Shown piece after piece: positions 3,630 through 41,888 of a DNA stretch of 64,000 nucleotides. Both the position numbers and the translations under genes were made by a program. This stretch comes from an uncultured Lachnospiraceae bacterium. Lineage in GTDB: Bacteria; Bacillota; Clostridia; Lachnospirales; Lachnospiraceae. The stretch covers positions 31,087 through 95,086 of the forward strand of contig CADCII010000015.1 in NCBI GenBank assembly GCA_902801515.1, written 5' to 3'. Each line of letters opens with the position of its first letter. Within the stretch, counting starts at the first letter, position 1. The notes below the pieces were generated by a model, which was given only the letters and a program-made list of their open reading frames with translations, did no database searches and had not been told where the DNA came from.

Positions 3630-3672
3630 GGAAAACGCATTTTACAGATGCGGAAAAGTAATCTGGTACTCT
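3630..3672 (+). promoter_or_regulatory. Island promoter element, copy 1
   Basis: GGAAAACGCATTTTACAG at 3630-3647, then TACTCT at 3667-3672, 17 nt after ACAGAT. This is the first of eight copies of a conserved element (AAAA-N4-TTTT inverted repeat followed by ACAG and a -10-like box). It lies about 50 bases before the secreted-protein gene at 3721. The -10 is weak in this copy. Confidence 0.65.
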
Positions 3673-3720
3673 GACATTGGCAAATAACAATCCATGCAAT
3701 GACACAACAGGAGGTAAGGC

Positions 3721-4335
3721 ATGAAAAAAAGAAACAGGAAATGGATTACTTTTGTACTGATGGCAGCGGTCTTTACATTGCTCGCAGGGATGAGTGCATT
3801 CGCAAAGACTCACAAGGAAACGAAGGGTGTTCCGTACGGGCAAAGAGAATACTTTGTATACAGCGGACCGGCATCAGGCATATCAAAGGTCAAATCTTCC
3901 AACAAGAAAGTAGCATCAGTTACAACCCGGAAAGAAGGGGCAGGCGTTGAGGTCTGCCTGAAGCTCAAGAAGCAGGGTATGACGAATCTTTCCTACAAGG
4001 TCAAGAAAAATGGCAAAACGGTTACCTACAAGATCAAATTGTGTGTATACAAGAATCCATTCAAGACCTTAAAGGTTGGCAATGCAAACTACAAATCACA
4101 GTTTAGTGTTGGAGATTACAGTACCCTTCTGAAAGGCAAGGGCAAGGTCAAAATCAAGTTAAAGAAAGGCTGGAAGGTCAAATCTATTAAAGTGCAGGGA
4201 GGCGGCAGCAACTGGAGAAAACTGAAAAAGGGCGAACAGGTCGATATTGAACATAAGCACAGCTTGCGGATCACCCTGAAGAATACAAAATATCGCTTCA
4301 CAACAGACTACTGGATCTGGGGTGGCGGCGTCTAA
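3721..4335 (+). CDS. Lys-rich secreted protein with Ig-like (Big2-type) features
   Basis: This 204-residue protein starts at an ATG 5 bases after a strong AGGAGG. The signal peptide is residues 1 to about 28 (ends SAFAKT). The mature part is very basic, with short patterns such as SKVKSSNKKVASVTT that resemble Big2-type Ig-like domains (SSNKKVATV) found at the C-termini of the island's giant proteins. It is probably a secreted or wall-bound structural protein. It is the first gene of the island, it has its own copy of the island promoter, and a hairpin follows it. It resembles in general character the small secreted protein at 41424 that closes the island. I recognise no enzyme motif. Confidence 0.8.
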   Translation: MKKRNRKWITFVLMAAVFTLLAGMSAFAKTHKETKGVPYGQREYFVYSGPASGISKVKSSNKKVASVTTRKEGAGVEVCLKLKKQGMTNLSYKVKKNGKTVTYKIKLCVYKNPFKTLKVGNANYKSQFSVGDYSTLLKGKGKVKIKLKKGWKVKSIKVQGGGSNWRKLKKGEQVDIEHKHSLRITLKNTKYRFTTDYWIWGGGV

Positions 4336-4340
4336 AGATG

Positions 4341-4432
4341 AAAAAGGCGCAGCGTGCCAAAGCGGCGGCTGCGCCAGATCTTTCGCATAGAGGAAAGCGG
4401 GACAGTTGAATGTACAATAACTACTTAGACAA
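4341..4432 (+). repeat. Duplicated intergenic block, left part, ending in a 12-bp inverted repeat
   Basis: Bases 4341-4420 closely match 10616-10693 (hairpin, then AGAGGAAAGCGGGACAGT and an AT-rich end). The block ends with CTACTTAGACAA (4421-4432), the exact inverse of TTGTCTAAGTAG at 5825-5836. The two inverted copies bracket the 4498 gene and the kinase remnant. At 10.7 kb the two flanks lie almost side by side with no gene between them. Confidence 0.7.
4346..4375 (+). terminator. Hairpin, probable terminator
   Basis: GGCGCAGC (4346-4353) pairs with GCTGCGCC (4368-4375). An A5 run precedes it and only a weak T-rich stretch follows, so it may also act on the other strand. The same hairpin and flanks recur at 10621-10650. 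Confidence 0.6.
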
Positions 4433-4497
4433 AATGAACAGGAACCATACTGTCAGAATTGAAATATATTAGTACATAATAGAAGGAGACTAAATAG

Positions 4498-5715
4498 ATG
4501 ATGGACCGTAAAAGAATAACTTCAGTATGTCTAGCTGCAACGTTCACAGCTGCTTTACTTGTAAGTCCTGCATGGGCTGATGAAGAAAGCCCCTGGGCAG
4601 TAGCAGATAATGTATTGAATGTGAATAACCCGCTTCCCGAATACAAAGAGATCGTCATAGAAGAGGAACCGGTTGTCGAACGGGAAGGGCAGTTCACAGA
4701 TGAAGAGAGAGAGTTCTCATATAGTTATACTGCACCGCGGGATGGGTATTACTTACTTTGGATTGATGATTTTACTCCGAATTGTGGGGCATCGGTTTCC
4801 TGGACTGATCCGTATGGAAATAAACTAAGCAACTCTGATGTCCAGTTGGAAGAAGGATTGACTTATGATATTACCGTCTGGAGCGGTAACAATACTCATT
4901 TTAAAGTATCTGTATTCCAACAGAAACCAACTACGGATCTTTCAGGATATATTAAGGCAAAGGATCAAATTGCTTTTGATGCACAACATAATTACTATAC
5001 GTATACAGCTAAAAACACAGGTACTCATGTGCTTTTCCTGGATCTGGCTCCTAATATAGGCGTTTGGTATGGGGTTTATGATTCCTATGGTAATGAAATA
5101 AAATGCAGTAATACTTGGTATGGGGATAAACATGTTAGTGTTGAATTGGAGAAAGACGAGACGTATACACTTGAGATTTGCTCTTCGGATCACGGGTATT
5201 ATTCGGTTTACTTTGGAGAGAAAAAGCCGCTTGTTGATGTGAGTGGGTATTCGGTAATAAATGATGCGTTTGACTATAGAAAGCAGGTTAATAATTATTC
5301 TTTTAATCCACCAATAGAGGGAAAGTATAGAATTTACTGTGAAGGAAAACAGGTTGATTCATTTAAAGTATATAGTGAAGAGGGGGATGACATTAATCCG
5401 AATCCGTTCAACGATTACCAATGTTCCTTAGAAGAAGGAGCAGAATATAGTTTTGTGGTTTATGGAACAGATGATGGTATCAGCGATTATACAATTACGA
5501 TCGATTACCCATCTGAAGCCCAGGCTTACCTGGATCAGGTTGCTTCCGGCGTTGTAGAGACGGAGGCGGACGGGACTGCGGAAGTCGATCCGAAATATGC
5601 TGAATTGGAAGCCAGGAATCAGGAACTGGAATCTGAACTTGCTGCGCTTCAGGAAAAATATGATCTGCTGACAGACATTCTCGGCGACAGCGGTCTGCAG
5701 ATTGATGGAGAATGA
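4498..5715 (+). CDS. Secreted repeat protein with C-terminal coiled-coil tail
   Basis: This 405-residue protein starts at the first of two adjacent ATGs after AGAAGGAGAC. The signal peptide ends near SPAWADEE. Three beta-rich repeats of about 85-95 residues follow, each opening with a pattern like VDVSGYSVINDAFDYR...YSF and resembling pre-peptidase-type beta-sandwich domains (this match is inference). The last 45 residues form a coiled coil (EARNQELESELAALQEKYD). It is a paralogue of the protein at 31967-33250 in all three parts, and the tail also recurs in the lectin fragment at 36346. A kinase start codon lies 2 bases after its stop, mirroring the kinase/coiled-coil pairing at 30340-33250. 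Base composition is more AT-rich than its neighbours. Confidence 0.85.
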   Translation: MMDRKRITSVCLAATFTAALLVSPAWADEESPWAVADNVLNVNNPLPEYKEIVIEEEPVVEREGQFTDEEREFSYSYTAPRDGYYLLWIDDFTPNCGASVSWTDPYGNKLSNSDVQLEEGLTYDITVWSGNNTHFKVSVFQQKPTTDLSGYIKAKDQIAFDAQHNYYTYTAKNTGTHVLFLDLAPNIGVWYGVYDSYGNEIKCSNTWYGDKHVSVELEKDETYTLEICSSDHGYYSVYFGEKKPLVDVSGYSVINDAFDYRKQVNNYSFNPPIEGKYRIYCEGKQVDSFKVYSEEGDDINPNPFNDYQCSLEEGAEYSFVVYGTDDGISDYTITIDYPSEAQAYLDQVASGVVETEADGTAEVDPKYAELEARNQELESELAALQEKYDLLTDILGDSGLQIDGE

Positions 5716-5716
5716 T

Positions 5717-5836
5717 ATGGATTTTCCGAAGCTCCCGCAGAAATGGGATGACTGGATTATAACAGAGAAGGTCGGTGAAGGGTCCTACACTAGACTTCAA
5801 TGTGAAAGCCAGATAAACAGCATATTGTCTAAGTAG
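5717..5836 (+). pseudogene. 5' remnant of a Hanks-type Ser/Thr kinase gene
   Basis: The ORF MDFPKLPQKWDDWIITEKV (then GEGSYTRLQ) is 39 codons long and ends at a TAG inside the 12-bp inverted repeat. Its first 25 residues line up with the N-termini of the two intact kinases here: W-x2-W, then a glycine-rich loop (GEGSY here; GSGSYG at 30340; GTGSFG at 14865). Everything after the glycine-rich loop is gone. It starts 1 base after the stop of the 4498 gene. I read it as a kinase gene cut off by rearrangement. Confidence 0.7.
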
Positions 5837-6000
5837 ATTCTGAACAGCGGCGTATGGGGCCGCTGTTCTTCATTCGCTGACAACATATCTTTGATATTAA
5901 TCGATTCTGAAGCGTCAATCCGACAGATTTTGTAATCTCAATCAGGCTGATTCCAAACTTTCCCCTTGCAGACTGAGAGCAGGAAAACGGATTTTACAGG
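5823..6000 (+). repeat. Duplicated intergenic block, right part
   Basis: Closely matches 10707-10886 over about 180 bases with small differences. It carries TTGTCTAAGTAG, a hairpin, a CGCTGACAACATATCTTTGA stretch, and the island promoter element at its 3' end. The two copies drive different secreted-protein genes (6068 and 10968). Confidence 0.8.
5842..5868 (+). terminator. Hairpin terminator
   Basis: GAACAGCGG (5842-5850) pairs with CCGCTGTTC (5860-5868), followed by TTCATTC. The same hairpin occurs at 10727-10753. Confidence 0.65.
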
Positions 6001-6023
6001 AATAGAAAAGCATATGGTACAGT
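5982..6023 (+). promoter_or_regulatory. Island promoter element, copy 2
   Basis: GGAAAACGGATTTTACAG at 5982-5999, then TACAGT at 6018-6023, 16 nt after ACAGGA. It lies 45 bases before the ATG at 6068 and argues against translation beginning at the upstream ATG at 5966. Confidence 0.65.
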
Positions 6024-6067
6024 GGTTTCAGCAATCAATAGCATACAAATCTTTGAGGAGGATCATC

Positions 6068-6664
6068 ATGAGGAAAAAATGGATTGCGTACCTGGTTTTA
6101 ACGTTTTTTGTTCTTATGCTTTCATTCAACACTTTTGCCGATGAAGTGAATGAATTCACATTCAGAAATTGTATTAAATTTGGGATGAGCAAAGCAGAAG
6201 TATTACAGGCAGAAATAGAGATTAATCAAACAAATAAATCGGATTGGTATCCCCTTACACCGGAAAAATGGGAATGGCTATTTTATGATGACTTTGTTGA
6301 GGTTAGTGATTATGCAGGGATCGTTATGTACAGTTTTGCTGACGGCTTCCTTCAGGGGGCCAACTACATGTTTGGGATATACGGTGAGGGGGAATATAAA
6401 GATTTATCAGAAGCCTTGTCCGAGGTCTACGGAGAAAAAACTTCGATCCCGAACGACAAACTTAATGAAATGGCAAGGCCTGTAATAGCAGGCGTATTAG
6501 GCTCAGATGTTAAGCTATCAGACGGATATGTCTGGTATCAGGACAATGTGACCATATATGAATACCAGTATGGGGATGACGGACAATTTGCAATTACGTA
6601 TCTCAATCCGAATTTTGATTACGAGGCATTTAACAATGGTACAGCAAGCACAGGAGGATTATAA
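6068..6664 (+). CDS. Small secreted protein of unknown function
   Basis: The frame is open from 5966, but the ATG at 6068 follows GAGGAGG and begins a clean signal peptide (MRKKWIAYLVLTFFVLMLSF, cleaved near FADE), so 198 residues. The upstream ATG would overlap the promoter. The mature part is acidic and mixed alpha/beta (FRNCIKFGMSKAEVLQAE near its start resembles the opening of small lipoprotein-like periplasmic folds, but I do not recognise a family). It lies between the rearranged 4498-5836 segment and the giant LRR gene at 6732, 67 bases upstream of the latter and probably cotranscribed with it. Confidence 0.8.
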   Translation: MRKKWIAYLVLTFFVLMLSFNTFADEVNEFTFRNCIKFGMSKAEVLQAEIEINQTNKSDWYPLTPEKWEWLFYDDFVEVSDYAGIVMYSFADGFLQGANYMFGIYGEGEYKDLSEALSEVYGEKTSIPNDKLNEMARPVIAGVLGSDVKLSDGYVWYQDNVTIYEYQYGDDGQFAITYLNPNFDYEAFNNGTASTGGL

Positions 6665-6731: not shown

Positions 6732-9700
6732 ATGAAGACTAGAAGATGGAATAATTGCCTGTTGACTGAATTAATCGCCGTGATGCTCGTCATTACTCAT
6801 ATGGGAGGAATGGTAGCTCTGGCGGACGAGGAATTCGAAGTGATTCCGGATATTGATGCTGTATGTATTGAAAACGATCCGGGAGGTACAGAAGAAAGAA
6901 TAGAGTCCGGCATGAGTTTAACGGATGAAGAGGAACCGATCGCCTGCTTAATTGAAGATCTGGAGAAGGAAGAGCCTGAACCTGATGGACTGACCGTGGA
7001 TGACACGAGTGAAACGGAGTCAGAAGATATATCGGCAGAGAACGGAATCTGGCAGGAAGAAGCTGACATATCCGGAGATGGCGTGCCTGAGACAGATGGC
7101 GCAGCAGGTATCGAGGAGACAGAGACGGAGTATACTCTGGGGGAGACTGTTTCGGAGGAGATTACTTCGGAAGAAATGGCTCTGATGGAAGCGGCAGCGG
7201 ACAATTCTTCTGAATCTGCAGGAGAACTTACACTTAAGCAGAGTGAGGTTACACTGTATTATGCATCGGACAATCTGAAGAATCAGAAGGAAATCCCTGC
7301 AGATAAGCCAGGGCAATATAAGATCGAATTGTCTCAGACATATGATGGAAATGTAACATACAGTTACTGGTCGAAAGATAACAATTGCAGTTTTGCAAAT
7401 GACCTGTATGTCGATCTGACAGAGGATGGCGTAATCACTGCGAAGAAAGCGGGGGAATCGATGATCCGGGTGCGGGCCGGTTCATCCGTGATGTTCCTGA
7501 CAGTCCATGTAAAGTCTTACGACCGGGAGTATGTGGAAAATATACTGGATTCATATATACAGGAACATATTCTGCCGCTTTCTACCCAGAAGGAACAGGC
7601 GGAGGCTATAGTCCGGTACGTTGCTGAAAACTACAGTTACAGCGCGTCTTACAGCGGATATGTTTCCATGGGGGTAAACGGTGCCGGTGACTGCTGGGCC
7701 AGTACGGATATGATTCAGTATATGTGCAAGAAGGCGGGAATTCCTTCAGAAATGTGGATTGAGGACAAGGAAAACTTCGGAGTACTTACCGGCGGGCATA
7801 TGAAGGCGATTATCTATGCAGATGGAGAATATTACATCGGAGAGGCCGGATATGTTCAGCAGAAACCCCGCAGATATGATTTCTACAAATTGTCAGGTCC
7901 CTTCTCTATTGAAAAGCTGACAGATACCACCTGCGAGATTACCCGGTATGACGGTGTGGAGGGGGACGTGGTGATTCCGGAGAAGATCAATGGCTTTACT
8001 GTAACCTCCATCGGACATCACTGTTTTTACCGGACTGGCGTGCAGATTACATCTGTCAGGATTCCGGATACTGTAACCAACATTGGGAAATTTGCATTTG
8101 CAGGCTGCAGCCAGCTCTCGGAAATGATGATTCCGGCATCGGTCACATCCATCGGTTCAGGCATTTTCTGGAGTGATATCAGCCTGAAAGAGATAAAAGT
8201 TGATTCCCGGAATTCAAGCTATAAGAGCATCGACGGCGTACTGTTCTCTGCGGATGGGAAAGTTCTGGTCGAATGCCCGAGAGGACTTACAGGCGCTTTT
8301 GTGGTTCCGGAGGGGACAGAAGAGATACAGGCAGCAGCATTTTCCGGTTCTGAGATAACCGAAGTCACCATTCCCGGATCGGTCCGAACTATCGGGAACA
8401 GTGCTTTTCAGTATTCCAAGCTGAATAAAGTAACATTGAATGAGGGCCTTGTGACGATCGGAGAATGTGCATTTGCGTCCACGTATACGAAGAGCATTAC
8501 GATTCCATCCTCCGTAAAGAGCATTCAGGCAGGAGCGCTGCAGAATATCACGAGAGGCATTCTCGTACTGACAAAGGACGCAGAGATCGGTACGGAAGCG
8601 ATGCCTCACGGGTATATTGCAGCCTATCCCGGATCCACTGCACAGGCTTATGCAGAGGAAAACAACTACAGATTCACAGAATTGGACAGCAGCGGGAGGA
8701 TTCTGCTGAAGGATGAATGGTTTGCGCTGAAGAGCACGGAGTATACCTACAGTGGAAGGGAGATGCGGCCTGAGGTTTCTGTTTCAGGATCGATTGTGCA
8801 GAACAATCAGGACCAGGCGGACTATACAGTTACTTATGAGAATAATACTGACGCCGGATGCGGATATGCCGTCATAAACGGGATAAACCGATTCAGCGGA
8901 ACGGTGCGTCTGCCGTTTACCGTTCAACCGCAGAAGATTAATATGAGCAGCCTGAACACATCTGTTGCGGTGGATGACTGTTTCCTCTCTGACTACAGCA
9001 ACGGGTGCGAGCCGCAGATAGAAGTGTATACCGGGAGCTATTATTATCGAAAGACCTATACACAGGGGAAAGATTATACAGTTGTCTATGCGGAGAACAA
9101 AGACCTTGGAGAGGCAACTGCAACCATCACCATGACTGGAAATTACACTGCGGATACGACAAAGACGATTACCTTCCGTGTGTATGAGCATCTTCCCGAG
9201 CCGGAAAAGATTGAGGATGTGGTATATAACGGAAACGATCAGAAACCGGATGTTGCAGTGAATGGACTGAGCCCGAATGAAGATTACGGAGTCCGGTATA
9301 CAAACAACAGGGAGACCGGTGTGGCAACTGCAACAGTGATCGGCATGGGTTATTACAGGGGAGAAAAGACGGTTGAATTCAACATTCTGCCATGCCCGAT
9401 AGAACGGGTGGAAATCAGTGTAAATGCATCAGATATTGTTTATTCGGGCAAAGAGCAGAGGCCGAAGATCACTGTGTATCATAAGATCCCGTATACAGTC
9501 GATGAGAAAACGTATTATACACGCCGTTCCCTGGAGGAGGGGAAGGATTACAGCGTCATATATAAAAACAATGTCAATGCCGGAACTGCCGGCGTGACAT
9601 TGACCGGCATGGGAAATTATACCGATGAAAAAACGGAGACATTTACCATAAAGCCGGCATCCATCTATGATGTGGTATTTAACACAATGACCCTGAAAGA

Positions 9701-10595
9701 CGGCCAGGTTTCAACAGAAGCTCAGTACAGCGGGATGAAGCTTACGGAAGGAGTGGATTACAGCACGGAACTGAAGAGCTATTATATCAGGCTGTCGGCT
9801 GCGGAGAAATATCGACAGGAAGTTGGAACTGTACTGTTCCGGGGAATCGGTAACTTTGGAGAAAGCTGCGAAAGCAAGGTATCTGGCGAGAGGGAATCCG
9901 GTACGTTTATCCCCATTGCACCAATCGATGACAGAACTTATATCGGCCAGGATATCTGCCCAAAAGCGGAGGTGCTCTATGACGGAAACACACTGACCGA
10001 AGGGACGGACTATAGCCTTTCTTACCGGAACAACCGGTATGTGGGAACTGGAACGGTCCGGATCAGCGGAATCGGAAACTATCGGTTTGATGAGGAAGTC
10101 TCGTTTAGCATCGTAGAGAAGAAAGATGCTGATGACTCGACAGGAGGAATCGGAAACGGCGATAACGATGATGACGTTGGGAATGGCGATAACGACGGTA
10201 TCACAAGCCGAGAGAATGAGGAACACAGACATACCTTTGGAAGCTGGAGAATTGTGAGGAAAGCTACTGCTGTTTCTACGGGTATGAAGTGCAGGGTGTG
10301 TTCATGCGGAGCGACTGAAAGCAAACCTGTTGCCAGGCTGCGCGCAACCGGCCGGTTCAACAGAAAGAAAGTAATGGTCAGGAAAGGGAAGACATATCGA
10401 AAACTGAGTGTGACCGGACTTGCGGAAGGCGACTATGTGGTGAGCGTCCGCTCCACGAAGAAGAAGGTGCTTCAGGTTAAGAACTTTGACAGGACAGGAA
10501 AGATTGTATTGAAAGGGAAAAAGAAAGGAAGGGCTAAACTTATCGTGACACTTGCCAGCGGCAGGAGGATCAGCATGAAGGTAAAGTGCAGGTAG
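6732..10595 (+). CDS. Giant secreted transglutaminase-like / LRR / Ig-like repeat protein
   Basis: This is a 1287-residue surface protein. Parts in order: a signal peptide (to about residue 33, VALADEE); an acidic low-complexity stretch (about 34-165); a Big2-like strand region; and a transglutaminase-like domain (about 285-380) with Cys in GAGDCWAS, His in GGHMKAI and GEAGY where the third residue is expected. BspA-type LRR_5 repeats follow (about 410-640: VTNIGKFAFAGCSQL and similar). Next come about five Ig-like repeats with the DYTVTYENN...GNYTGT pattern (about 670-1130), a Gly/Asp linker, a CxC/CxxC-bearing segment, and a basic Big2-like C-terminus. No LPXTG motif. The same design is seen at 36862-40236. 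It likely acts outside the cell in adhesion or peptide/polysaccharide processing; the activity is not established. Confidence 0.9.
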   Translation: MKTRRWNNCLLTELIAVMLVITHMGGMVALADEEFEVIPDIDAVCIENDPGGTEERIESGMSLTDEEEPIACLIEDLEKEEPEPDGLTVDDTSETESEDISAENGIWQEEADISGDGVPETDGAAGIEETETEYTLGETVSEEITSEEMALMEAAADNSSESAGELTLKQSEVTLYYASDNLKNQKEIPADKPGQYKIELSQTYDGNVTYSYWSKDNNCSFANDLYVDLTEDGVITAKKAGESMIRVRAGSSVMFLTVHVKSYDREYVENILDSYIQEHILPLSTQKEQAEAIVRYVAENYSYSASYSGYVSMGVNGAGDCWASTDMIQYMCKKAGIPSEMWIEDKENFGVLTGGHMKAIIYADGEYYIGEAGYVQQKPRRYDFYKLSGPFSIEKLTDTTCEITRYDGVEGDVVIPEKINGFTVTSIGHHCFYRTGVQITSVRIPDTVTNIGKFAFAGCSQLSEMMIPASVTSIGSGIFWSDISLKEIKVDSRNSSYKSIDGVLFSADGKVLVECPRGLTGAFVVPEGTEEIQAAAFSGSEITEVTIPGSVRTIGNSAFQYSKLNKVTLNEGLVTIGECAFASTYTKSITIPSSVKSIQAGALQNITRGILVLTKDAEIGTEAMPHGYIAAYPGSTAQAYAEENNYRFTELDSSGRILLKDEWFALKSTEYTYSGREMRPEVSVSGSIVQNNQDQADYTVTYENNTDAGCGYAVINGINRFSGTVRLPFTVQPQKINMSSLNTSVAVDDCFLSDYSNGCEPQIEVYTGSYYYRKTYTQGKDYTVVYAENKDLGEATATITMTGNYTADTTKTITFRVYEHLPEPEKIEDVVYNGNDQKPDVAVNGLSPNEDYGVRYTNNRETGVATATVIGMGYYRGEKTVEFNILPCPIERVEISVNASDIVYSGKEQRPKITVYHKIPYTVDEKTYYTRRSLEEGKDYSVIYKNNVNAGTAGVTLTGMGNYTDEKTETFTIKPASIYDVVFNTMTLKDGQVSTEAQYSGMKLTEGVDYSTELKSYYIRLSAAEKYRQEVGTVLFRGIGNFGESCESKVSGERESGTFIPIAPIDDRTYIGQDICPKAEVLYDGNTLTEGTDYSLSYRNNRYVGTGTVRISGIGNYRFDEEVSFSIVEKKDADDSTGGIGNGDNDDDVGNGDNDGITSRENEEHRHTFGSWRIVRKATAVSTGMKCRVCSCGATESKPVARLRATGRFNRKKVMVRKGKTYRKLSVTGLAEGDYVVSVRSTKKKVLQVKNFDRTGKIVLKGKKKGRAKLIVTLASGRRISMKVKCR

Positions 10596-10867: not shown

Positions 10868-10910
10868 GGAAAACGGATTTTACAGGCAGGAGATCGCAGG
10901 ATGCTAAGAT
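10868..10910 (+). promoter_or_regulatory. Island promoter element, copy 3
   Basis: GGAAAACGGATTTTACAG at 10868-10885 and TAAGAT at 10905-10910, 17 nt after ACAGGC and preceded by TGC (extended -10). It lies 58 bases before the start of the 10968 gene. Confidence 0.7.
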
Positions 10911-10967
10911 AAATTACCGTGTATAGAGTACAGACAGGGGCAATGACTGAAATTGGAGGTTGATGTG

Positions 10968-14804: not shown

Positions 14805-14864
14805 TGGAAACCTGCCGGTTTATGAAGATGAATTGTGAGGCCGTTCTGTGGGAGCAGATCACTT

Positions 14865-26702: not shown

Positions 26703-27473
26703 ATGAGTTATCGCGTTGAATATGCTGCCATCTGTTTTACCGGAAAAGAGAGGGTGAACAATGAAGATAACTTCTATGTGGACGGGCGGTTCCTTCCAGA
26801 GAAGAACAGTGGGCTGCCCGGGCTGATAGAGGGGACATTCCTTTCAGGGGACAGGGCAATGGCAGCTGTCTTCGACGGACTGGGAGGTTGTGAAGCGGGA
26901 GAAAGAGCCGCGTTCCTGGCAGCGAAGACAATGGGAACGCTTTTAAACAGCAAAGCGGAAAAAGAAGTGGCAGAGGCAGATACACATTCTCTGATAAACA
27001 GCATGTGTGAAGAACTGAACCGGGCAGTGTGCGGCTCACAGGCAAACGCGACGCCCTTGTCAAGGGGGACGACCGTCGTATCAGCCCTTTTCAGGAACGG
27101 AAAGGTCGCGGCGTGGAATGTTGGGGACAGCATGTCTTTCCTTATCAGGGAAGGGAGAATAAAGTCCGTTTCAAAGCAGCATGTGGCGGATTACGGGTTC
27201 GCTTTTGGAAAACCACCCATCACGCAGTGTCTTGGCATTCCGGTTGATGAGATGGTCATTGAGCCATATATCAGCGAGTTTCCTGCCAGGGAAGGGGATA
27301 TTATCCTCCTGACGTCCGATGGGGTCACGGATGTCCTTTCGGAAGAAGAGATCCTGACGCTGGTGGAGCGTGGAGAAACATTAGGTGAAACCACTAAGAA
27401 AATCGCGTCCGTAGTGAACTTAAGGGGTGCTCCTGATAATACGACGGCCGTGTTATGCAGGGTGCAGATATAG
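26703..27473 (+). CDS. PP2C-type Ser/Thr phosphatase, copy 1
   Basis: The protein has 256 residues and is cytosolic. The PP2C metal-binding and catalytic motifs are all present: an N-terminal arginine/Asp motif (RVNNEDNF), VFDGLGGCEAGE (Asp-Gly-x-Gly-Gly), GTTVVSALF, WNVGDSMSFL, TSDGVTDVL and DNTTAVL. It should reverse phosphorylation by the Hanks kinases nearby using two Mn/Mg ions. It starts 6 bases after family X, with a GAGG within the end of that gene, so the two are translationally close. It is a paralogue of the enzyme at 40536. Confidence 0.95.
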   Translation: MSYRVEYAAICFTGKERVNNEDNFYVDGRFLPEKNSGLPGLIEGTFLSGDRAMAAVFDGLGGCEAGERAAFLAAKTMGTLLNSKAEKEVAEADTHSLINSMCEELNRAVCGSQANATPLSRGTTVVSALFRNGKVAAWNVGDSMSFLIREGRIKSVSKQHVADYGFAFGKPPITQCLGIPVDEMVIEPYISEFPAREGDIILLTSDGVTDVLSEEEILTLVERGETLGETTKKIASVVNLRGAPDNTTAVLCRVQI

Positions 27474-27520
27474 AAAAAAGTATGCAAAAGCAAGAGTTCA
27501 CCAGAAAGGAGGAACGAAAG

Positions 27521-28990: not shown

Positions 28991-28995
28991 GAATA

Positions 28996-34956: not shown

Positions 34957-36159
34957 ATGAGATTTTTAGACACAACAGATTTTGAATCGACTGTCCGGGA
35001 TTTTGAATTTACACGAAAGGCGCAGAACCAGATCCTGAGAGTTGTGGAGTCGGATGATTTTGCCGATATGGATTCTGAGGCGATCTTCCGGTATCTGTAT
35101 AAGACGATGGAGATCGTATCCTTCAAGGATTATCTGAAAAGGTATATCTATGAGCGGGCAGGGCTCAGGGAACCCTTCCGGGCTGTTCCGGATGATGTCT
35201 TCGGGGAGATCATCGCGTACTCGTTCGAGGAGAATGCTGCGCCGCATTCATTTGAGCCCAGCAGCACGAAATGGTCTGTAACGATTAAGGGATGGCTCCA
35301 GCATGACAGTGTAAGACGGAGCGCAGTGTTCCTTCTCGGGTTTGGCCTACGTATGTCTGACAGAGATGTGTCGTCTTTCCTGACGAAGGTCCTGAAGGAG
35401 GAAGACTTCGATTTTATGGATCCGAAGGAAACGGTATTCTGGCATTGCTATCGCAATGGGAAGAGTTATGCAGAAGCGCAGGCAGTACTCCGTGAGACAG
35501 AGGCCAGAATCTCTGAGGGAGCAGAAGGATCCGGAGAATTGTCGATAAGAAACCATCAGGATGCGCTTAAGGCACACCTGGATGACAGATCGGCATTGAT
35601 CGATTATCTGATCTATCTCAATAAAAGCGGGAAAAGTACAGCAAAACAACGTACAGCATATGAGTATTTCTGCAGACTGTTGGAGCTGACAAAAGTAGAA
35701 GTTGCACGAATGAACAGTGAAGATCTGGCAGCAGATGCAGCAAAGAAGAGTTATTCACCGGAAGATATTACCTCTGCTGATATTGAGCAGGTGATCTGCA
35801 GCGGGATTCCTGTCACGAAGAACGGGAATCTGCAGAAGGCATCATCGTCTCTTCTCAGCAAGCAGTTTAACAATTTCCGCTTGAGCAGGCAGAGGATCGA
35901 CGGAGTACTGAAAAAACAGCTTCAGGTAGACCGATATGATCTGATCACGCTGGAATTCTTCCTTTACTCGCAGAAAGACTATGAGTTTCCGGAAGATATG
36001 CTGAGAGATTTCATGGATGATATGAACCGGATACTGCAGGAAAGCGGTCTGAAAGAGCTGCACGCAGTGAATCCATATGAAGCTTTTGTGCTGATGTGTC
36101 TGCTGTCAGAGGTCCCGCTTGCAACATATGCAGACGTCTGGGAGATGTCATTTTGCTGA
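34957..36159 (+). CDS. Family X cytosolic protein, copy 2
   Basis: The protein has 400 residues, soluble and helical, a full-length paralogue of the 25452 protein. Strongly shared blocks: DYLKRYIYE, PSSTKW, VRRSAVFLLGFGL, SSFLTKVLKEEDFDF, CYRNG, VICSGIPVTKNGNLQKASSS, LSRQRID, DRYDLIT and NPYEAFVLMCLLSE. No PP2C gene follows this copy; a terminator and promoter element come next. The last 80 or so bases are almost repeated at 40429-40512. The ribosome site is weak (AAGAG), consistent with coupling to the gene before it. Confidence 0.85.
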   Translation: MRFLDTTDFESTVRDFEFTRKAQNQILRVVESDDFADMDSEAIFRYLYKTMEIVSFKDYLKRYIYERAGLREPFRAVPDDVFGEIIAYSFEENAAPHSFEPSSTKWSVTIKGWLQHDSVRRSAVFLLGFGLRMSDRDVSSFLTKVLKEEDFDFMDPKETVFWHCYRNGKSYAEAQAVLRETEARISEGAEGSGELSIRNHQDALKAHLDDRSALIDYLIYLNKSGKSTAKQRTAYEYFCRLLELTKVEVARMNSEDLAADAAKKSYSPEDITSADIEQVICSGIPVTKNGNLQKASSSLLSKQFNNFRLSRQRIDGVLKKQLQVDRYDLITLEFFLYSQKDYEFPEDMLRDFMDDMNRILQESGLKELHAVNPYEAFVLMCLLSEVPLATYADVWEMSFC

Positions 36160-36243: not shown

Positions 36244-36286
36244 GGAAAATCGATTTTACAGAATGATTGTTTCCAGTCGATAAAAT
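36244..36286 (+). promoter_or_regulatory. Island promoter element, copy 7
   Basis: GGAAAATCGATTTTACAG at 36244-36261 contains the perfect palindrome AAAATCGATTTT. TAAAAT is at 36281-36286, 17 nt after ACAGAA. Positions 36264-36280 nearly match copy 8 (GTTTCCAGTCGA shared). Confidence 0.75.
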
Positions 36287-36345: not shown

Positions 36346-36774
36346 ATGAAGGAATTCGTTGAGACATTAAACGAATCTAACTCAAGAGCGTGGATTGGGG
36401 GATATCGGGACGATAACTTTAACTGGCATTGGGTAACCGATGAGGACTGGGAATATACTAATTGGTCGCCCGGTGAGCCTAACAATTCATCAAATGTTAT
36501 AAGCAATGAGAATCGAGCCGTGCTATGGAGGCAGAAGTGGAATGATTTAAATGAGAATAATACAGGAGAGAGCCACGGATATATATGTGAATGGGAAGAG
36601 GTTAACAACTCGGATATTGATTTAAACAATTCTGCTGATAAAAGTGAATCTCTGCAAACATTGCAGGAAGAGAATAAAAAGCTAAAAACAGAATTGGAGA
36701 AGTTGCAGAAAGATTATGATTTTCTCCTGAAGATTGTTCAGGATGCAGGCCTGGAGTATGAGCCGGCGGATTAA
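36346..36774 (+). pseudogene. C-type lectin-like protein lacking its N-terminus
   Basis: The 142 residues begin inside a C-type lectin-like fold. The hallmarks are there: AWIGGYRDD, W-x-W, YTNWSPGEPNN (an EPN-type sugar/calcium motif), KWNDLN and the closing YICEWE. The first third of the fold and any signal peptide are missing. The C-terminal coiled coil (EENKKLKTELEKLQKDYDFL) is the same kind of tail as in the 4498 and 31967 proteins. Upstream, a separate frame starting at 36315 reads MLKRQVKDNQD, similar to the start of the next gene (MKRQL), suggesting that the promoter and first codons of one gene were joined to the middle of another. It could still be expressed as an internal protein, but I think it is a deletion product. 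Confidence 0.65.
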
Positions 36775-36861: not shown

Positions 36862-39800
36862 ATGAAAAGACAACTCTGTACATTTTCTTCTGTATTTGTT
36901 CTTTTGCTCAGCCAACTGGGCGGTTCAGTGTATGCAGATGAGCAGACTGCATGGACGGCAGATCCTGCCTCAGCTCTGGAATCAGTTGAAGATGGTTTCT
37001 ATGAAGCAGCACAGGATGAAGATGTAACCGATGTTTCAGACAACTTCATCGAAGACAATAGTCTGGTTGATCTGACGGTCACAGAAGAAACGGAACGGTC
37101 GGATGATCTCGAAGACGATTGCATAATTGAGAACATCGATGAAGTGGGATTCGCTGAGATCATCCCGGATGGAATTACTGCTGAAGCAGAAGATTCTGAG
37201 ATCATGCCGGATGGTATGGCAACTGAAACTGAAACGGAAAGTGAACTGCCGGATCCGGAGGAGCCGGTTACGATCTCAGAAGATGCTGAGGATGACACAG
37301 ATGCCCAGGACAGCGAAGGCGAGATCCTGTGCGCCGCGGATTCAGGGATAACCATTAACGCAGAGGAAGTGACGCTCTATTATCTCAGAGGTAATTACAC
37401 AGAATATATATCATCCATACCTGAAGATATGCCCACATCTTTTCAGATCAATGTTTCGGGAGCAAATAAAAAAGAGCGCTTTGTTCGGCGCAGCGGCGAT
37501 ATTTCAGTGGATGACAGCGGCTTCGTCACAATCTTACCAGGCAGCGGCAGCCGGAGTTCTTCGGGTGAGATAGAGGTTACGGTTGATGGAGAGACGATCG
37601 CTACAGTCAAAGTCAATCTCGTCAGCTATGAACGGTACTATGTTGAGCAGATTGTAAATGCGGATATAGAAAGACTCGGTATCAGGAATCTGAACAGTGA
37701 TTACGAGAAAGTCAGCGCGATCTGCAATTACGTTTCTAAGACATACAATTACAGTCCCAAGAGTTCCAGCATGATGGGTGAAGTTCTTACGGGTGGTGCT
37801 GACTGCATAGGGAACAGTGACCTTGTCTGCTATATGTGTGAGCAGTGCGGGATTCCCGCACACATACGCAATGCGAACTTTGTTCCTGGTGCAGGTGCCG
37901 GTCATGAGAACAATATCGTAAAGATTGACGGGGAATATTATATAGTCGATTGCGGATATACAGGCGATGCTCCTCGTAGTTATCAGTTTTATAAAGTTTC
38001 CAATGACTTTGAATACTCTATGAACAGCGATGGAACGATCTGTCTGGACAGCTATATGCGTTTTGACTTGGATGTGGTAACCATTCCGGCGCAGCTAGAC
38101 GGATACAAGGTCTCTTCCATTCGCAGTGGTATGCTGCAGGAGGACAGCTACAGCAGGATTCTGGTCGAAGAAGGGAGTGAATATTTCTCTTCAAGGAATA
38201 ATGCCCTGTGTACTCTCGATGGAAAGAAGCTGATTGCCTGTCCGCAGAAGACAGCAGGATGCTATACGATTCCAAACGGTGTTGAGACAATTGGAGAGAA
38301 GGCATTCATGTATTGTAAGGATATTACACAACTCACGATGCCGGACAGTGTGACCGCGATCGAAGACCATGCATTTTTATGGTGTAACAAGATGTCTGAG
38401 GTAAACTGGTCCGACTCTCTTGAAGTCATCGGAAATGACGCTTTCAGTGCATGTGAAAGTCTGAAAGAGATTATCTTCCCGGAATCGTTGAGGGTGATCG
38501 GCGCTGACTCTTTCGCAGCAAGTATGCATCCAGAAGCGGTATACATTCCGTCAGGGGTCACTTCAATAGGAGCGGGTGCATTTTTGAGGGTGCCTTTCAT
38601 GGTGATAGAAACGAAGGATCCGGAACTTGGTCATCATGCTGTCTGCGAGTGCACGACATTCTGCTATCCCGGGAGCACAGTTGATACAGTCTGCACCGGT
38701 CCGCACTATGATATCAACCTGCTGGATGAAAATAAGCGTCTGGTGCTGCGGAAGGAATTCTTCACAGTGGATCAGTCCGACAAAGTATATAAGGGAACCG
38801 AGCAGACACCTCTGGTACAGAATACAGAGGATTACAAATGGCTAGAGTATTATGACTGGAAATGGTCTGATGAAAAGAGTACATATGTAAAGCAGCTCAT
38901 CAGAGATAATTATGACGTAACCTATAAGAATAATGTCAATGCAGGAACCGGGACGATCGTGATCAGCGGGAAAAACAGGTGTACAGGTACACTTTCCTAC
39001 ACCTTTAAGATAAAACCGCAGAAAATCTTCTCCTCAAGTTATTATTCTTACCGGCTGCAGTTTAAAGATTCCGGTTCCCGCCTGGCAAGTTTCAAGTATA
39101 CCGGAGAGGAGATTCGGCCGGAGGTCGATATATGTAAGAAAGGGACTGTAGATACGTCTTTCCTGCCGGGAAGGGACTACACTCTCACTTATTCTGATAA
39201 CACAGATATAGGTTATGAGACAGGAACTATCACGCTAAACGGAATCGGCAATTATGCAGGGACTGATACGATTCATTTTACGATAAAAGGATCGCTTCCG
39301 GAGCCGGAGCCGATTCCAGACCAGCAGTATACCGGAAGCAGTATAGAGCCGGAGGTAATCATACCTGGATTGCCCCGTGACAATAACTATTCTGTGTTCT
39401 TTGAAAATAATATGAATCCGGGAAGGGCTTCTGTGACGGTTCAGGGATACAGATGTTATGAAGGCAGTTGGACGATTTATTTCTCCATCATCAGAGAGCT
39501 TCCTGAGATCAGCAGAATCGCAGACTGTACGTATACAGGCGCAGAGATCAGGCCGAATGTCTACATTCCGGGGGCTATCGAGGGAACCGATTATATGCTG
39601 GAGTATTCCAATAATACGGAGGTCGGCACCGCTACTGTGACAGCCACAGGAGTCGGATATTATACAGGCACCCAGACTGCTGAATTCCGGATTACCGCCC
39701 CTGGTTCTTCGCTGTCAGAGGGTTCTGATTATGACTATAAGTATATGAATCCGACAATCAAACTGAACGCATTTTTTATTCCTCTCAAGGTGGGACAGTC

Positions 39801-40236
39801 CACCAGGAAATTGAAAGTTTCCGGATTGCAGAAGGGAGACTCTGTTTGGGAATGGGCGTCCAGCAATACGAAGATTGTTACCGTGAATCAGAAAGGCGTA
39901 ATAAAAGCAGGCAAAAAGACCGGAACGGCATATATAGGAGTTTGGACGGATTACGGAGCTTTCGCAATGGCTAAGGTCAGTGTGCAGAAAAAGAAAGTTG
40001 CTGCGAAAAAGATCTCAGTGGTAAGAGCCATAACCCTGAAGAAAGGGGAGAAATACTCCCTGAATGCCAAGGTCACACCGATCACGGTCACTGACAAGAT
40101 CAAATATAAGTCTTCGAAAAAGAAGATAGCCACTGTTTCCGGTAAAGGCGTGATCACCGCAAAGAAGAAAGGCAAAACCACGATCACGGTCAAATGCGGT
40201 AAGAAGAAGATTAGGGTCAAAGTCCTGGTAAAATAG
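36862..40236 (+). CDS. Giant secreted transglutaminase-like / LRR / Ig-like repeat protein, second copy
   Basis: The protein has 1124 residues after AAGAGGAACG. Order: signal peptide (ends SVYADEQ), an acidic stretch (about 30-155), a transglutaminase-like domain (about 270-380) with Cys in GGADCIGNS, His in GAGHENNIV and Asp in IVDCGY. A short LRR_5 block (about 465-590: VETIGEKAFMYCKDI and similar), four or so Ig-like repeats with GNYAGT/NNTEVGTATV patterns (about 640-950) and two basic Big2 domains (about 965-1124) follow. The catalytic triad is complete, unlike the 6732 paralogue. Probably a surface protein that binds or crosslinks; no sortase motif. Confidence 0.9.
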   Translation: MKRQLCTFSSVFVLLLSQLGGSVYADEQTAWTADPASALESVEDGFYEAAQDEDVTDVSDNFIEDNSLVDLTVTEETERSDDLEDDCIIENIDEVGFAEIIPDGITAEAEDSEIMPDGMATETETESELPDPEEPVTISEDAEDDTDAQDSEGEILCAADSGITINAEEVTLYYLRGNYTEYISSIPEDMPTSFQINVSGANKKERFVRRSGDISVDDSGFVTILPGSGSRSSSGEIEVTVDGETIATVKVNLVSYERYYVEQIVNADIERLGIRNLNSDYEKVSAICNYVSKTYNYSPKSSSMMGEVLTGGADCIGNSDLVCYMCEQCGIPAHIRNANFVPGAGAGHENNIVKIDGEYYIVDCGYTGDAPRSYQFYKVSNDFEYSMNSDGTICLDSYMRFDLDVVTIPAQLDGYKVSSIRSGMLQEDSYSRILVEEGSEYFSSRNNALCTLDGKKLIACPQKTAGCYTIPNGVETIGEKAFMYCKDITQLTMPDSVTAIEDHAFLWCNKMSEVNWSDSLEVIGNDAFSACESLKEIIFPESLRVIGADSFAASMHPEAVYIPSGVTSIGAGAFLRVPFMVIETKDPELGHHAVCECTTFCYPGSTVDTVCTGPHYDINLLDENKRLVLRKEFFTVDQSDKVYKGTEQTPLVQNTEDYKWLEYYDWKWSDEKSTYVKQLIRDNYDVTYKNNVNAGTGTIVISGKNRCTGTLSYTFKIKPQKIFSSSYYSYRLQFKDSGSRLASFKYTGEEIRPEVDICKKGTVDTSFLPGRDYTLTYSDNTDIGYETGTITLNGIGNYAGTDTIHFTIKGSLPEPEPIPDQQYTGSSIEPEVIIPGLPRDNNYSVFFENNMNPGRASVTVQGYRCYEGSWTIYFSIIRELPEISRIADCTYTGAEIRPNVYIPGAIEGTDYMLEYSNNTEVGTATVTATGVGYYTGTQTAEFRITAPGSSLSEGSDYDYKYMNPTIKLNAFFIPLKVGQSTRKLKVSGLQKGDSVWEWASSNTKIVTVNQKGVIKAGKKTGTAYIGVWTDYGAFAMAKVSVQKKKVAAKKISVVRAITLKKGEKYSLNAKVTPITVTDKIKYKSSKKKIATVSGKGVITAKKKGKTTITVKCGKKKIRVKVLVK

Positions 40237-40339: not shown

Positions 40340-40534
40340 ATGAACAGAGTGGATTCCTGTGATTGTTATGATGCAGATATAAGACAGGTTTTGAAGATCA
40401 TTTGTGCGTTAAATGATAGATTACATACGTATGAAGCCTTTGTCTTAATGTGTCTTCTGTCAGAAGTTCCGCTTGCAACGTATGCCGACGTCTGGGAAAT
40501 GTCATTTTCCTGCCCCACATCTAAGGAGAAATGA
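40340..40534 (+). pseudogene. 3' remnant of family X
   Basis: The last half of this 64-codon frame (YEAFVLMCLLSEVPLATYAD, then VWEMSF) is nearly identical to the end of family X copy 2; DNA is also close between 36076-36158 and 40429-40512. The first 30 codons have no counterpart in the family. The remnant lies right before a PP2C gene, as the intact copy at 25452 does, so the original arrangement was X then PP2C. Confidence 0.75.
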
Positions 40535-40535
40535 A

Positions 40536-41300
40536 TTGGGAAAGCTGATACGATATGCTGCCTGGTCCAGCAAGGGCCATGTGCGGGACAAAAACCAGGA
40601 TAACTTGTACTGTGGTGAAGGGTTCTTCCTTGAGGAAATGAACAATGGAATGGAAGAATTCTTTGTCGGTTCTACATCGCCGGGAGAGGGCAGCCTGTTC
40701 GCAGTATTCGATGGAATGGGCGGAGAGAAAGCAGGCGAAACTGCTGCGTATCTTGCTGCAAAAAGAATGCAGCAGATTGATATGAAGTATTCCGAATGGA
40801 AGAAGGCTCTGTTTCCTGAAAGATTCCTTGAATCATTCTGCAAGGCGGCCAGCGCGGAGATAGACAGCTGCCGAAAAGCCAGGCATTACGATGCGATGGG
40901 GACGACCACTGCTGCGGCGTATGTGCAGAGAGGGAAGGTGATCATCTGCAACGTCGGTGACAGCCGGATCTATCGCTATTCAGAAGGAGAGTTCAGACAG
41001 GTTTCCATAGATCACACAGAATCGTATTGCTTTGTCGGGAATGCAGCGCTTACACAATACCTGGGGATTCCGGCGGAAGAGATGGTGATCGAGCCGGCTG
41101 TCAGTCGGTTCCCTTACAGATCAGGAGATATCTATCTGCTGTGTACAGATGGGGTGTGGAACTGTTCGAATGAAACTGTTCTGCAGGAGCGCTTGTTGTC
41201 AGAGAGCAATATCCGAAGTAAGATGAGAAACCTCTTTGATATGGTATATGAATATGGAGAGAGGGACAACGCAACTGCAATTATTCTGGAATTAAAGTGA
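40536..41300 (+). CDS. PP2C-type Ser/Thr phosphatase, copy 2
   Basis: The protein has 254 residues from a TTG start at 40536, eight bases after AAGGAG; the frame extends back to 40473 but that part overlaps the family X remnant and does not match the family. Motifs: KNQDNLY, VFDGMGGEKAGE, GTTTAAAYV, NVGDSRIYRY, CTDGVWNCS and DNATAIIL. It is complete and probably active. The TTG start, its 1-base distance from the preceding stop and the GGAG within the remnant suggest translation coupled to what was family X. Confidence 0.93.
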   Translation: MGKLIRYAAWSSKGHVRDKNQDNLYCGEGFFLEEMNNGMEEFFVGSTSPGEGSLFAVFDGMGGEKAGETAAYLAAKRMQQIDMKYSEWKKALFPERFLESFCKAASAEIDSCRKARHYDAMGTTTAAAYVQRGKVIICNVGDSRIYRYSEGEFRQVSIDHTESYCFVGNAALTQYLGIPAEEMVIEPAVSRFPYRSGDIYLLCTDGVWNCSNETVLQERLLSESNIRSKMRNLFDMVYEYGERDNATAIILELK

Positions 41301-41301
41301 G

Positions 41302-41344
41302 GGAAATTCGATATTACAGAATGAGTGTTTCCAGTCGATATAAT
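41302..41344 (+). promoter_or_regulatory. Island promoter element, copy 8
   Basis: GGAAATTCGATATTACAG at 41302-41319 and perfect TATAAT at 41339-41344, 17 nt after ACAGAA. It begins one base after the phosphatase stop. Downstream sequence (GTCACAAATAAAGGAACCC) resembles the leader after copies 5 and 7. Confidence 0.75.
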
Positions 41345-41423
41345 GGAGTCACAAATAAAGGAACCCGAGCCTTCGCAAAACGCGGGTGAGGGCGGGTTAA
41401 TAGTAAGGTATAAGGAGAGACAT

Positions 41424-41888
41424 ATGAATTCATTAAGAACTGATAAGATCAGGAGCTTTGTCACAAAGGCGATCATAGTGCTGGGAATATTGCTCATGGC
41501 ATTTATGGTACAGGGAAGCCGGAAGAGCGTGCATGCAGCATCTAAGAAGTATGTGTACTATTCGAGTCTTAGCAGGCAGGAAAACTATAGTACGTACTGG
41601 GGCAGGACATCAAAGATCAGTTTGAAAGGAAAGAAGCTCAAGATAACCGGAACCCTTACAAGAGCAAAATCGGAGCAAATGATTTCCAGAGCAGGCAGAC
41701 TGCTTCCGAAGAAAAAGAGAACGTTTAAGCTCGCAAAGTCGTGTAAGTTTTATTTCAGGTCAGAGGACGGATTGTCAAGGGTCTCGAAGAGCAATTTTAT
41801 GAAGTATGCTAAGCGTTACCTTGGCCTGGGATTTGTTATTTTTACCAATAAATCCGGGAAGGTTACCAGGCTCTATCTATCTTCATAA
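41424..41888 (+). CDS. Small Lys-rich secreted protein
   Basis: The protein has 154 residues from the ATG at 41424 after TAAGGAGAGA; the frame is open further back but the promoter lies there. A long N-terminal signal sequence (hydrophobic AIIVLGILLMAFMV, cleaved near SVHAASKK) leads to a very basic mature part (KISLKGKKLKITGTL, KKKRTFKLAKSCKFYF). It is the last gene of the island and similar in size and composition to the first one at 3721. It converges on the ABC ATPase gene with one base between them and no terminator visible. Confidence 0.8.
   Translation: MNSLRTDKIRSFVTKAIIVLGILLMAFMVQGSRKSVHAASKKYVYYSSLSRQENYSTYWGRTSKISLKGKKLKITGTLTRAKSEQMISRAGRLLPKKKRTFKLAKSCKFYFRSEDGLSRVSKSNFMKYAKRYLGLGFVIFTNKSGKVTRLYLSS

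Follow-up and report, generated by a model that had tools for sequence, protein, structure and literature searches.

The stretch of DNA analysed here (the window, 64,000 nucleotides of contig CADCII010000015.1 from an uncultured Lachnospiraceae bacterium) contains an island, positions 3630-41888, in which kinases, PP2C phosphatases, members of a family designated X and surface genes are all encoded on the + strand. The inventory given in the original prediction was borne out, with two intact Hanks kinases plus a remnant, two PP2Cs and two family X genes plus a remnant on this one strand. The predicted set of secreted or membrane proteins also stands at about fifteen ORFs with a signal peptide or membrane segment (by eye), except that the ORF at 36346-36774, a truncated C-type lectin with a coiled-coil tail, carries no signal peptide. 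BspA-type LRRs were detected in three of the secreted or membrane ORFs by Pfam scan. The features are as follows.

3630-3647 (+): promoter element copy 1, lacking a clear -10; precedes the secreted-protein gene 3721-4335
3721-4335 (+): secreted protein, 204 aa, Ig-like by eye, no confident Pfam match
4498-5715 (+): secreted protein with C-terminal coiled coil (cc1), by eye
5717-5790 (+): kinase remnant, N-terminus to glycine-rich loop, MDFPKLPQKWDDWIITEKVGEGSY, directly after the cc1 gene 4498-5715
5982-5999 (+): promoter element copy 2, lacking a clear -10
6062-6664 (+): secreted protein, likely start within ORF 5966-6664
6732-10595 (+): secreted LRR_5 / transglutaminase-like surface protein (Pfam)
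10868-10885 (+): promoter element copy 3, TAAGAT 19 nt downstream
10968-12773 (+): secreted protein, in ORF 10953-12773
12813-14804 (+): secreted protein, by eye
14835-16790 (+): Hanks kinase 1 (PF00069, E 4.1e-41)
16807-20787 (+): secreted LRR_5 / Big_2 surface protein (Pfam)
21214-21774 (+): type I signal peptidase (domain/family profile match)
21988-22005 (+): promoter element copy 4, TATAAT 19 nt downstream
22463-22480 (+): promoter element copy 5, at the head of the gene run at 22.6-36.2 kb, with TAAGAT 19 nt downstream
22588-23040 (+): membrane protein with CxxCxG repeats, by eye
22947-23663 (+): zinc-ribbon membrane protein (Pfam)
23706-25439 (+): zinc-ribbon multi-TM protein (Pfam)
25452-26696 (+): family X copy 1, two units akin to kinase-linked XRE-type HTH proteins (profile comparison)
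26703-27473 (+): PP2C phosphatase 1 (Pfam)
27521-28990 (+): secreted protein, in ORF 27455-28990
28996-30315 (+): secreted protein, in ORF 28975-30315
30340-31950 (+): Hanks kinase 2 (PF00069, E 2.0e-43)
31967-33250 (+): secreted protein with C-terminal coiled coil (cc2), by eye
33247-34938 (+): secreted protein, by eye
34957-36159 (+): family X copy 2, 45% identical to copy 1
36244-36261 (+): promoter element copy 6, TAAAAT 19 nt downstream
36346-36774 (+): truncated C-type lectin with coiled-coil tail (Pfam)
36862-40236 (+): secreted LRR_5 / Big_2 / transglutaminase-like surface protein (Pfam)
40425-40512 (+): family X remnant, 88 bp, matching the C-terminal 28 codons (sequence comparison)
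40473-41300 (+): PP2C phosphatase 2 (Pfam), the true start probably lying further inside, as judged by eye
41302-41319 (+): promoter element copy 7, TATAAT 19 nt downstream
41418-41888 (+): secreted protein, likely start within ORF 41325-41888

Clear duplications within the island (repeats D2, D4, D5, D7 and D11) accompany these remnants, and repeat D14 is common to the two coiled-coil secreted genes. Both island kinases are of the Hanks type, matching PF00069 and, by eye, having an intact catalytic lysine (VIKI/VISI), HRDIKPDN and GDFG, and each possesses one transmembrane segment, located at residue 345 and followed by 288 residues in kinase 1, and at residue 341 and followed by 177 residues in kinase 2. 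Both PP2Cs match PF00481/PF13672 and display the DG.G, SDG/TDG and DN metal motifs by eye. The whole genome (3.08 Mb) encodes seven kinase domains and three PP2Cs, the third PP2C being paired with a PASTA kinase elsewhere (contig C1, locus L190). Neither a vWA nor a sigma-like family was found among the 24 island proteins scanned with Pfam, and no phage families were found among island proteins in Pfam scans. In PADLOC, whose scan covered the island kinases, X and the PP2Cs, the kinase domains match best to the mad6 and PD-T4-6 models, with the mad6 matches confined to the kinase domain (judged, for each kinase, over the best 25 of 34 matches); neither PP2C matches a mad family.

Family X matches nothing in Pfam, NCBIfam or PADLOC, neither the full protein nor its C-terminal segment matches a Pfam HTH family, matches in PHROGs were weak and confined to function-unknown families, and PDB profile searches with either query gave nothing credible. 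Structure models (pLDDT 84 for the full protein, 94 for the domain) found no significant match among solved structures in Foldseek, HTH proteins included (best E 0.36 and 1.3), and weak fold matches of the domain model to the XRE repressors Stl and C.Csp231I, with E above 1, were discounted as evidence. Profile comparison instead suggests a relation of X to a small family of XRE-type HTH proteins, which is likewise kinase-linked, in 25/30 loci (counted over 30 of the 60 matches listed, the query's own included) and occurs in 51 of 200 sampled family genomes. The C-terminal half of X matches this family at 87% (E 4e-6), falling to 0.1% with a shorter alignment, and the N-terminal half at 69-74% (E 3-5e-5), dropping to 42% with the full alignment; shuffled controls reached at most 2.1%, and the two halves show no direct match to each other (0.8%). 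The HTH family in turn matches an XRE profile, built from 19 of 28 HTH_3 matches (20 taken, one in the wrong frame left out), at 95%, so that the relation of X to XRE proteins draws stronger support by this indirect route than from direct comparison of the X C-terminus, read by eye as XRE-like, with the XRE profile, which is weak (13.6%). Family X is probably a DNA-binding protein, and it looks like an HTH-derived regulator of the regulon, more than a protein that simply accompanies it.

It had been predicted that X, kinase and PP2C genes would neighbour each other in other genomes, and this is indeed the case. A single-sequence scan of genome contigs for X found nothing, and an alignment-based scan recovered 26 loci with 32-47% identity to the window X. 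Among the 23 near-full-length loci elsewhere in Clostridia (a set that leaves out the X fragments L038, L042 and L043 and keeps the near-identical L018/L020 and the same-genome L019/L022) a Hanks kinase is present in 21 and a PP2C in 14. The module may be as small as kinase plus X, as in L034 and L035, where X is the sole candidate regulator encoded. An FHA-FHA-ABC exporter lies beside the kinase in X operon L030 according to Pfam, and kinase plus such an exporter were also recognized in the X operons of L024, L026, L041 and L111 with our own FHA model and protein length; L030 additionally adjoins cas-like genes, as judged by eye. The proposed link to surface genes holds in part: predicted secreted ORFs are enriched near modules (21/60 vs 8/68 far away), but the link is not universal, since seven of the 23 loci have no secreted neighbour.

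The predicted shared promoter element was likewise recovered, as an inverted repeat, G(G/T)AAAAT-N2-ATNTTAC, present in seven copies on the + strand of the island where 0.17 would be expected at ≤2 mismatches. At ≤1 mismatch the whole genome holds seven copies, all within the island, counted with a pattern derived from these same seven. TATAAT-type -10 boxes lie 18-19 nt downstream in 21 of 25 sites, the 18 non-window sites among them having been chosen by element and position and not by -10; two of the seven window copies have no -10 at all. The repeat is centered near -41.5, as reckoned from the -10 spacing and a deduced start site, and these promoters possess a -10 but no well-spaced -35, a layout of the class II kind. 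Class II activators bind near -41.5.

Recurrence was assessed with a matrix built solely from the seven window copies combined with TATAAT 18-19 nt downstream, a rule that three of these copies pass and whose score threshold and -10 requirement were fixed after sites had been seen. Sites were detected in 17 of the 23 near-full-length X loci (21 sites in 364 kb), standing before kinase/PP2C operons and surface genes, including LRR and lipoprotein genes, as compared with none in control DNA (356 kb, other kinase loci included) and 0-2 in six 533-kb Markov simulations. No site was found in L022, L026, L027, L031, L033 and L036, of which L031 and L033 begin at contig edges, nor in four of four further X loci from whole genomes (L113, L116, L117, L118). 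The 30 rule-passing sites comprise three window copies included in the matrix, two other window sites (20875, 58155), four in loci selected by prior pattern match (L111, L112, L188) and 21 from 29 loci selected independently of the element; L020, a near-duplicate of L018, is left out of this set and included in the 17/23 count. The 300 bp ahead of X modules are enriched for matches to the matrix, 12 of 21 loci reaching p<0.05 (Fisher 3e-10; set without L031 and L033, where the module lies at the contig edge, and the three X fragments). At ≤1 mismatch the full promoter occurs in 6/12 X-carrying vs 0/12 X-lacking genomes, the former including the own genome, the X-fragment genomes G003 and G014 and three with a site already known; two mismatches give no separation (7/12 vs 5/12). 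Among 397 family genomes, three were listed with ≤1 mismatch (own genome included), all carrying X; only such matches were used, a 3-mismatch pattern having been set aside as mostly noise (104 matched, reversed-pattern control non-trivial). The element is specific to the island in its own genome and recurs in other genera, and, together with the neighbouring trio elsewhere, it supports the notion that the island is a single regulated system.

The reading favored here, with a probability of roughly 55%, is that X, as a two-unit HTH protein, activates the island regulon and is switched by the membrane kinase and PP2C. The island would then constitute a regulon with a Ser/Thr phosphorylation switch of its own, in which kinases that have their catalytic domain in the cytosol, one span and 177 or 288 residues on the outside may sense a surface signal and, together with PP2C, set the phosphorylation state of X. 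Consisting of two units that each resemble the small XRE-type HTH family encoded beside Hanks kinases, X would act like a covalent dimer, bind the inverted repeat near -41.5 and recruit RNA polymerase to promoters with a -10 and no well-spaced -35. Its targets would include the kinase/PP2C/X operons themselves, providing feedback, as well as nearby genes for secreted surface proteins of the LRR, Ig-like and coiled-coil kinds; the island copies may have arisen by duplication followed by partial decay into remnants.

Alternatively, X could be an adaptor, scaffold or substrate of the kinase that does not bind DNA, the element being bound by an unlinked regulator. This is rather unlikely, although it agrees with the lack of a solved HTH match for the X model, with the ten X loci that have no element and with distant X relatives, among whose weak-match loci 15 of 21 have a kinase ORF within 1.5 kb, these kinases being quite different and including one with an NB-ARC-type ATPase. 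Against it, both X halves match the XRE-type HTH family, and the element is confined to the island in its own genome and absent from the control DNA, so that an unlinked regulator would serve mainly X loci. That the element is an alternative-sigma-factor promoter and no activator site appears the least probable option: GGAAA does resemble the -35 of some extracytoplasmic sigma factors, yet the -10 is the housekeeping TATAAT at 18-19 nt in most sites and the scanned island proteins include no sigma-like family.

It is improbable, too, that the island is a fast-duplicating surface locus that carried kinases, PP2C and X along and copied the promoter with its genes; the repeats and remnants fit such a history, whereas other genera have the trio and the promoter but not the surface genes of the window, and their X is only 32-47% identical. 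Equally low odds are given to a defence or toxin-antitoxin module, like KKP or MADS, with surface genes as passengers. The best PADLOC scores of the kinase domains, the cas-like genes beside one locus and the similar kinase and PP2C content of KKP, in the available portion of its report (PMC11341870), speak for it; X is nevertheless without PADLOC match, the kinase matches span the kinase domain only, the promoter is common to LRR and lipoprotein genes, and secreted genes are enriched near modules.

Under the favored activator reading, the same genes with the same promoter in other gut bacteria point to an undescribed phosphorylation-controlled gene switch. More tentatively, at somewhat below even odds, Clostridia may possess an undescribed class of Ser/Thr-kinase-controlled transcription switch, made up of membrane kinase, PP2C and XRE-derived regulator, in which X would be a fused two-unit form that reads the -41.5 repeat and sets surface-protein repertoires, and the small kinase-linked HTH family a simpler, wider form. 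For most bacterial Hanks kinases, to our knowledge, neither the targets nor the cognate regulators are known; in the present case, one conserved neighbour family, one conserved putative operator and a defined gene set render kinase-to-promoter signalling directly testable. If true, this would explain how surface-protein sets are controlled in some gut and rumen Clostridia, assign a function to a recurrent family that has neither a name nor an entry in Pfam or NCBIfam, and make kinase plus HTH regulator a Ser/Thr counterpart of two-component systems.

As predicted, no described system with the make-up of the island was matched in the libraries scanned or the open-access literature searched. According to the available part of its description, KKP is prophage-borne and comprises two kinases and a PP2C with joint toxicity, acting on the DNA-binding MvaU, a host protein encoded elsewhere (PMC11341870). 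It thus shares with the X system kinases plus PP2C in one operon and a DNA-binding protein as target (for X, a presumed one), and appears to differ in its prophage location and its target encoded elsewhere, X going unmentioned in the available portion of that source. PknF-Rv1747 of Mycobacterium tuberculosis combines a kinase with an FHA-ABC exporter, resembling those X operons elsewhere that pair a kinase with an FHA-FHA-ABC exporter; X operons add X and PP2C, and no such exporter is found among the scanned proteins of the window island. The distinction from PrkC/PrpC was upheld: the island shares a one-span Hanks kinase with a PP2C partner, but has several copies, an X partner and no PASTA domain (Pfam), and the PrkC reading was rejected at NF033483 scores of 134.7 and 130.6 bits against a cut-off of 450, the genome's own PASTA kinase/PP2C pair sitting on contig C1. 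TerY-P triads, in which a vWA (TerY-like) protein stands beside kinase and PP2C, share the latter two with the island and were rejected as a reading, again in line with the prediction, since the scanned proteins include no vWA family. MADS, a mad1-8 set including a methyltransferase and an ATPase, was rejected because, among the kinases, X and PP2Cs scanned, only the kinase domains match mad6 in the best matches listed. In PknH-EmbR, a Ser/Thr kinase is adjacent to its own transcription factor, EmbR, which carries FHA. The X system would resemble it in pairing a Ser/Thr kinase with its own putative regulator, and it differs in that X is two-unit, XRE-like and without FHA, and in having a PP2C and a conserved putative operator.

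The island lies in a genome of 3.08 Mb in 94 contigs, as a co-oriented gene run between two transporters that were named by eye:

2086-3522, MATE transporter flanking the run
3630-41888, plus strand, the island
25452-26696, plus strand, family X (an unnamed protein family), copy 1
34957-36159, plus strand, family X, copy 2
41890-43391, amino-acid ABC transporter flanking the run on the other side

The inventory first noted, of two intact Hanks kinases plus a remnant, two PP2C phosphatases and two family X copies plus a remnant, was borne out, the catalytic motifs of the kinases and phosphatases being intact by eye. The rest of the run includes genes for a signal peptidase, for membrane proteins with zinc ribbons and for numerous secreted proteins, among them three with BspA-type leucine-rich repeats (LRRs). 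The genome as a whole holds seven kinase domains and three PP2C genes, and its PASTA kinase with a PP2C is located outside the island. In the adjoining DNA, the ABC ATPase at 41890-42567 appears by eye to be shortened internally past the Walker B region, an APH-type phosphotransferase is fused to a STAS domain (45512-46690), and a single ORF (51773-54037) unusually combines GH67 alpha-glucuronidase domains with a metallo-beta-lactamase-type domain.

Four aligned X proteins (A1), used to search public genomes, returned 26 X loci; the genomes bear titles such as Lachnospiraceae, Oscillospiraceae, Ruminococcaceae or Clostridiales, and many are ruminant gut assemblies. The expected gene linkage recurs there: according to profiles made in this analysis and applied to the DNA around each locus, among 23 near-full-length X loci, 21 have a kinase gene and 14 a PP2C, mostly adjacent and on the same strand, against a chance expectation of about 0.05 kinase domains per 20 kb (from 7 per 3.08 Mb). 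The loci without a kinase, L027 and L033, are both near contig edges. X is uncommon, since 32 of 397 sampled genomes of the bacterial family have any match, ten with E below 1e-20. For distant relatives found as weak matches (L053-L073), the nearest kinase gene lies no further than 1.5 kb away in 15 of 21 cases, another relative (L015) adjoins a kinase with an NB-ARC-type ATPase, and eight distant relatives scanned against Pfam gave no credible match. The L030 operon additionally encodes an FHA-FHA-ABC exporter, and in L024, L026, L041 and L111 an FHA protein of similar length sits between kinase and X. In L022 (G007:C1) the X gene's neighbours are clustered genes for FHA, vWA and PP2C proteins and for zinc-ribbon kinases; by eye, BspA/DUF285-like repeats are present in one of the kinases. 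In L016 (G000:C61) an M20-like peptidase is flanked by two similar kinase genes (by eye), and the kinase scanned by Pfam contains RCC1 repeats.

The shared promoter element that had been proposed, GGAAADYSSATHTTACAG, occurs seven times in the window against 0.17 expected and, at up to one mismatch, nowhere else in the genome; as the pattern was derived from these seven copies, only its absence elsewhere carries information. Five copies have a recognisable -10 box, and the gene runs behind them jointly hold both kinases, both X copies and the first PP2C. When an 18-position matrix built from window copies only was run on other loci, the 300 bp before X modules scored higher than elsewhere in that locus at p<0.05 in 12 of 21 cases. 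The Fisher value over all 21 is 3e-10, an approximate figure given overlapping control windows and one pair of near-identical loci. The spacing is also kept, a TATAAT-like box following the element by 18-19 nt in 21 of 25 aligned sites (the L037 box, at 19 nt, came from the later element-plus--10 scan). A weak element-like site with TATAAT lies outside the island on the minus strand (58131-58172), about 60 bp upstream of a secreted protein (57103-58071).

Element and -10 box together were found at 30 sites in 533 kb (33 loci, window included). Six Markov simulations yielded 0-2 sites, and a control set of 86 loci (355,798 bases), among which were further kinase loci from the same bacterial family and stretches of the window's own genome, yielded none. 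Without the window and three loci fetched by the promoter pattern, the count is 21 sites over 29 loci and 435 kb, or 22 with L020, a near-duplicate of L018. By locus, a site is present in 17 of 23 near-full-length X loci from the A1 search, in one of three X-fragment loci and in none of four further X loci (L113, L116, L117, L118). Our reading of the 25 non-window sites puts 11 in front of kinase or PP2C operons, X fragments or, in L112, a kinase separated from the site by a transposase gene. Another 12 stand before genes for secreted, membrane or zinc-ribbon proteins or lipoproteins, among them an LRR protein (L029); two, L040 and L041 at 8688, are unclear as to gene. The L112 transposase-like gene (4251-4661, by eye) stands between a near-perfect promoter copy and the kinase gene. 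L188 has two perfect copies downstream of X (1731 and 4343), preceding membrane and lipoprotein-like genes and then ABC-transporter-like genes, an output that differs from that of the window. In a set of 24 genomes, the whole promoter at up to one mismatch turned up in 6 of the 12 that carry X and in none of the 12 that lack it, a separation lost at two mismatches (7 of 12 versus 5 of 12); all three genomes listed at up to one mismatch in the 397-genome scan, the window's own among them, carry X.

A link to surface proteins had likewise been proposed. Predicted secretion, judged by a crude signal-peptide criterion, is more frequent close to X modules: 21 of 60 ORFs lying no more than 1.5 kb away qualify, versus 8 of 68 more than 4 kb away (p 0.0027). 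The link is not universal, 7 of 23 X loci having no secreted neighbour. This enrichment, and the promoter common to both gene groups, support a surface-gene regulon.

As to X itself, no match was found in Pfam, NCBIfam or PADLOC. Its AlphaFold2 model is confident and all-helical (pLDDT 84, pTM 0.80; residues 58-193 alone, 94 and 0.87), and the models had no significant match among PDB structures. A scan of the window's own genome with the X profile picked up a small protein encoded immediately upstream of a further membrane kinase; the outer part of that kinase contains LRRs. This small protein weakly matches Pfam HTH_31 (E 6e-4, below the curated cut-off), and an XRE profile from the genome's HTH_3 proteins matches its family at 95%. 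The N-terminal half of X scored 69-74% against that family (42% with the full alignment) and the C-terminal half 87% (75%), with shuffled and reversed alignments at no more than 2.1% and 0.5%. An HTH origin of X is thus likely, and is graded no higher because the two halves gave no match when compared directly and a 74-column C-terminal alignment scored low (13.6% to XRE, 0.1% to the small family). The small XRE-type family (L192:5528-5962; relatives L193-L222) is carried by 51 of 200 genomes of the bacterial family and has a kinase gene within 1.5 kb in 25 of 30 loci examined, apparently a wider kinase-regulator pairing.

Element positions 1-16 form an imperfect inverted repeat, GTAAAAT-NN-ATNTTAC; averaged across 25 sites, 5.0 out of 8 potential pairs are matched against 2 by chance, in the best of 12 registers tried. 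Taking the first base of the -10 box as -12, with the start site inferred, the repeat is centred at -41.5 where the spacing is 19 nt and at -40.5 where it is 18 nt; a centre near -41.5 is the class II activator position established for CRP, and by eye no well-spaced -35 box was seen at element promoters. A protein with two HTH units, recognising an inverted repeat whose halves differ, would be a good fit to this operator. The main alternative is that X serves as a kinase adaptor while an unlinked factor binds the element. What the data show directly is the linkage of the genes, the recurrent promoter with its spacing and the intact enzyme motifs. X as an activator of the module and surface genes, switched by kinase and PP2C, is given a probability of about 0.55, a value lowered slightly on account of the four further X loci that have no site: the kinase would sense an outside signal, kinase and PP2C would set the phosphorylation state of X, and X would turn on both sets of genes.

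In line with the original prediction, no described system matching the cluster was found in Pfam, NCBIfam, PADLOC or PHROGs scans or in the open-access literature. Kinase-plus-regulator pairs are already a known kind, as exemplified by PknH-EmbR. Another case is KKP, which acts on MvaU (PMC11341870). As far as has been searched, family X, the putative two-unit regulator, the conserved operator and the proposed surface regulon are new.
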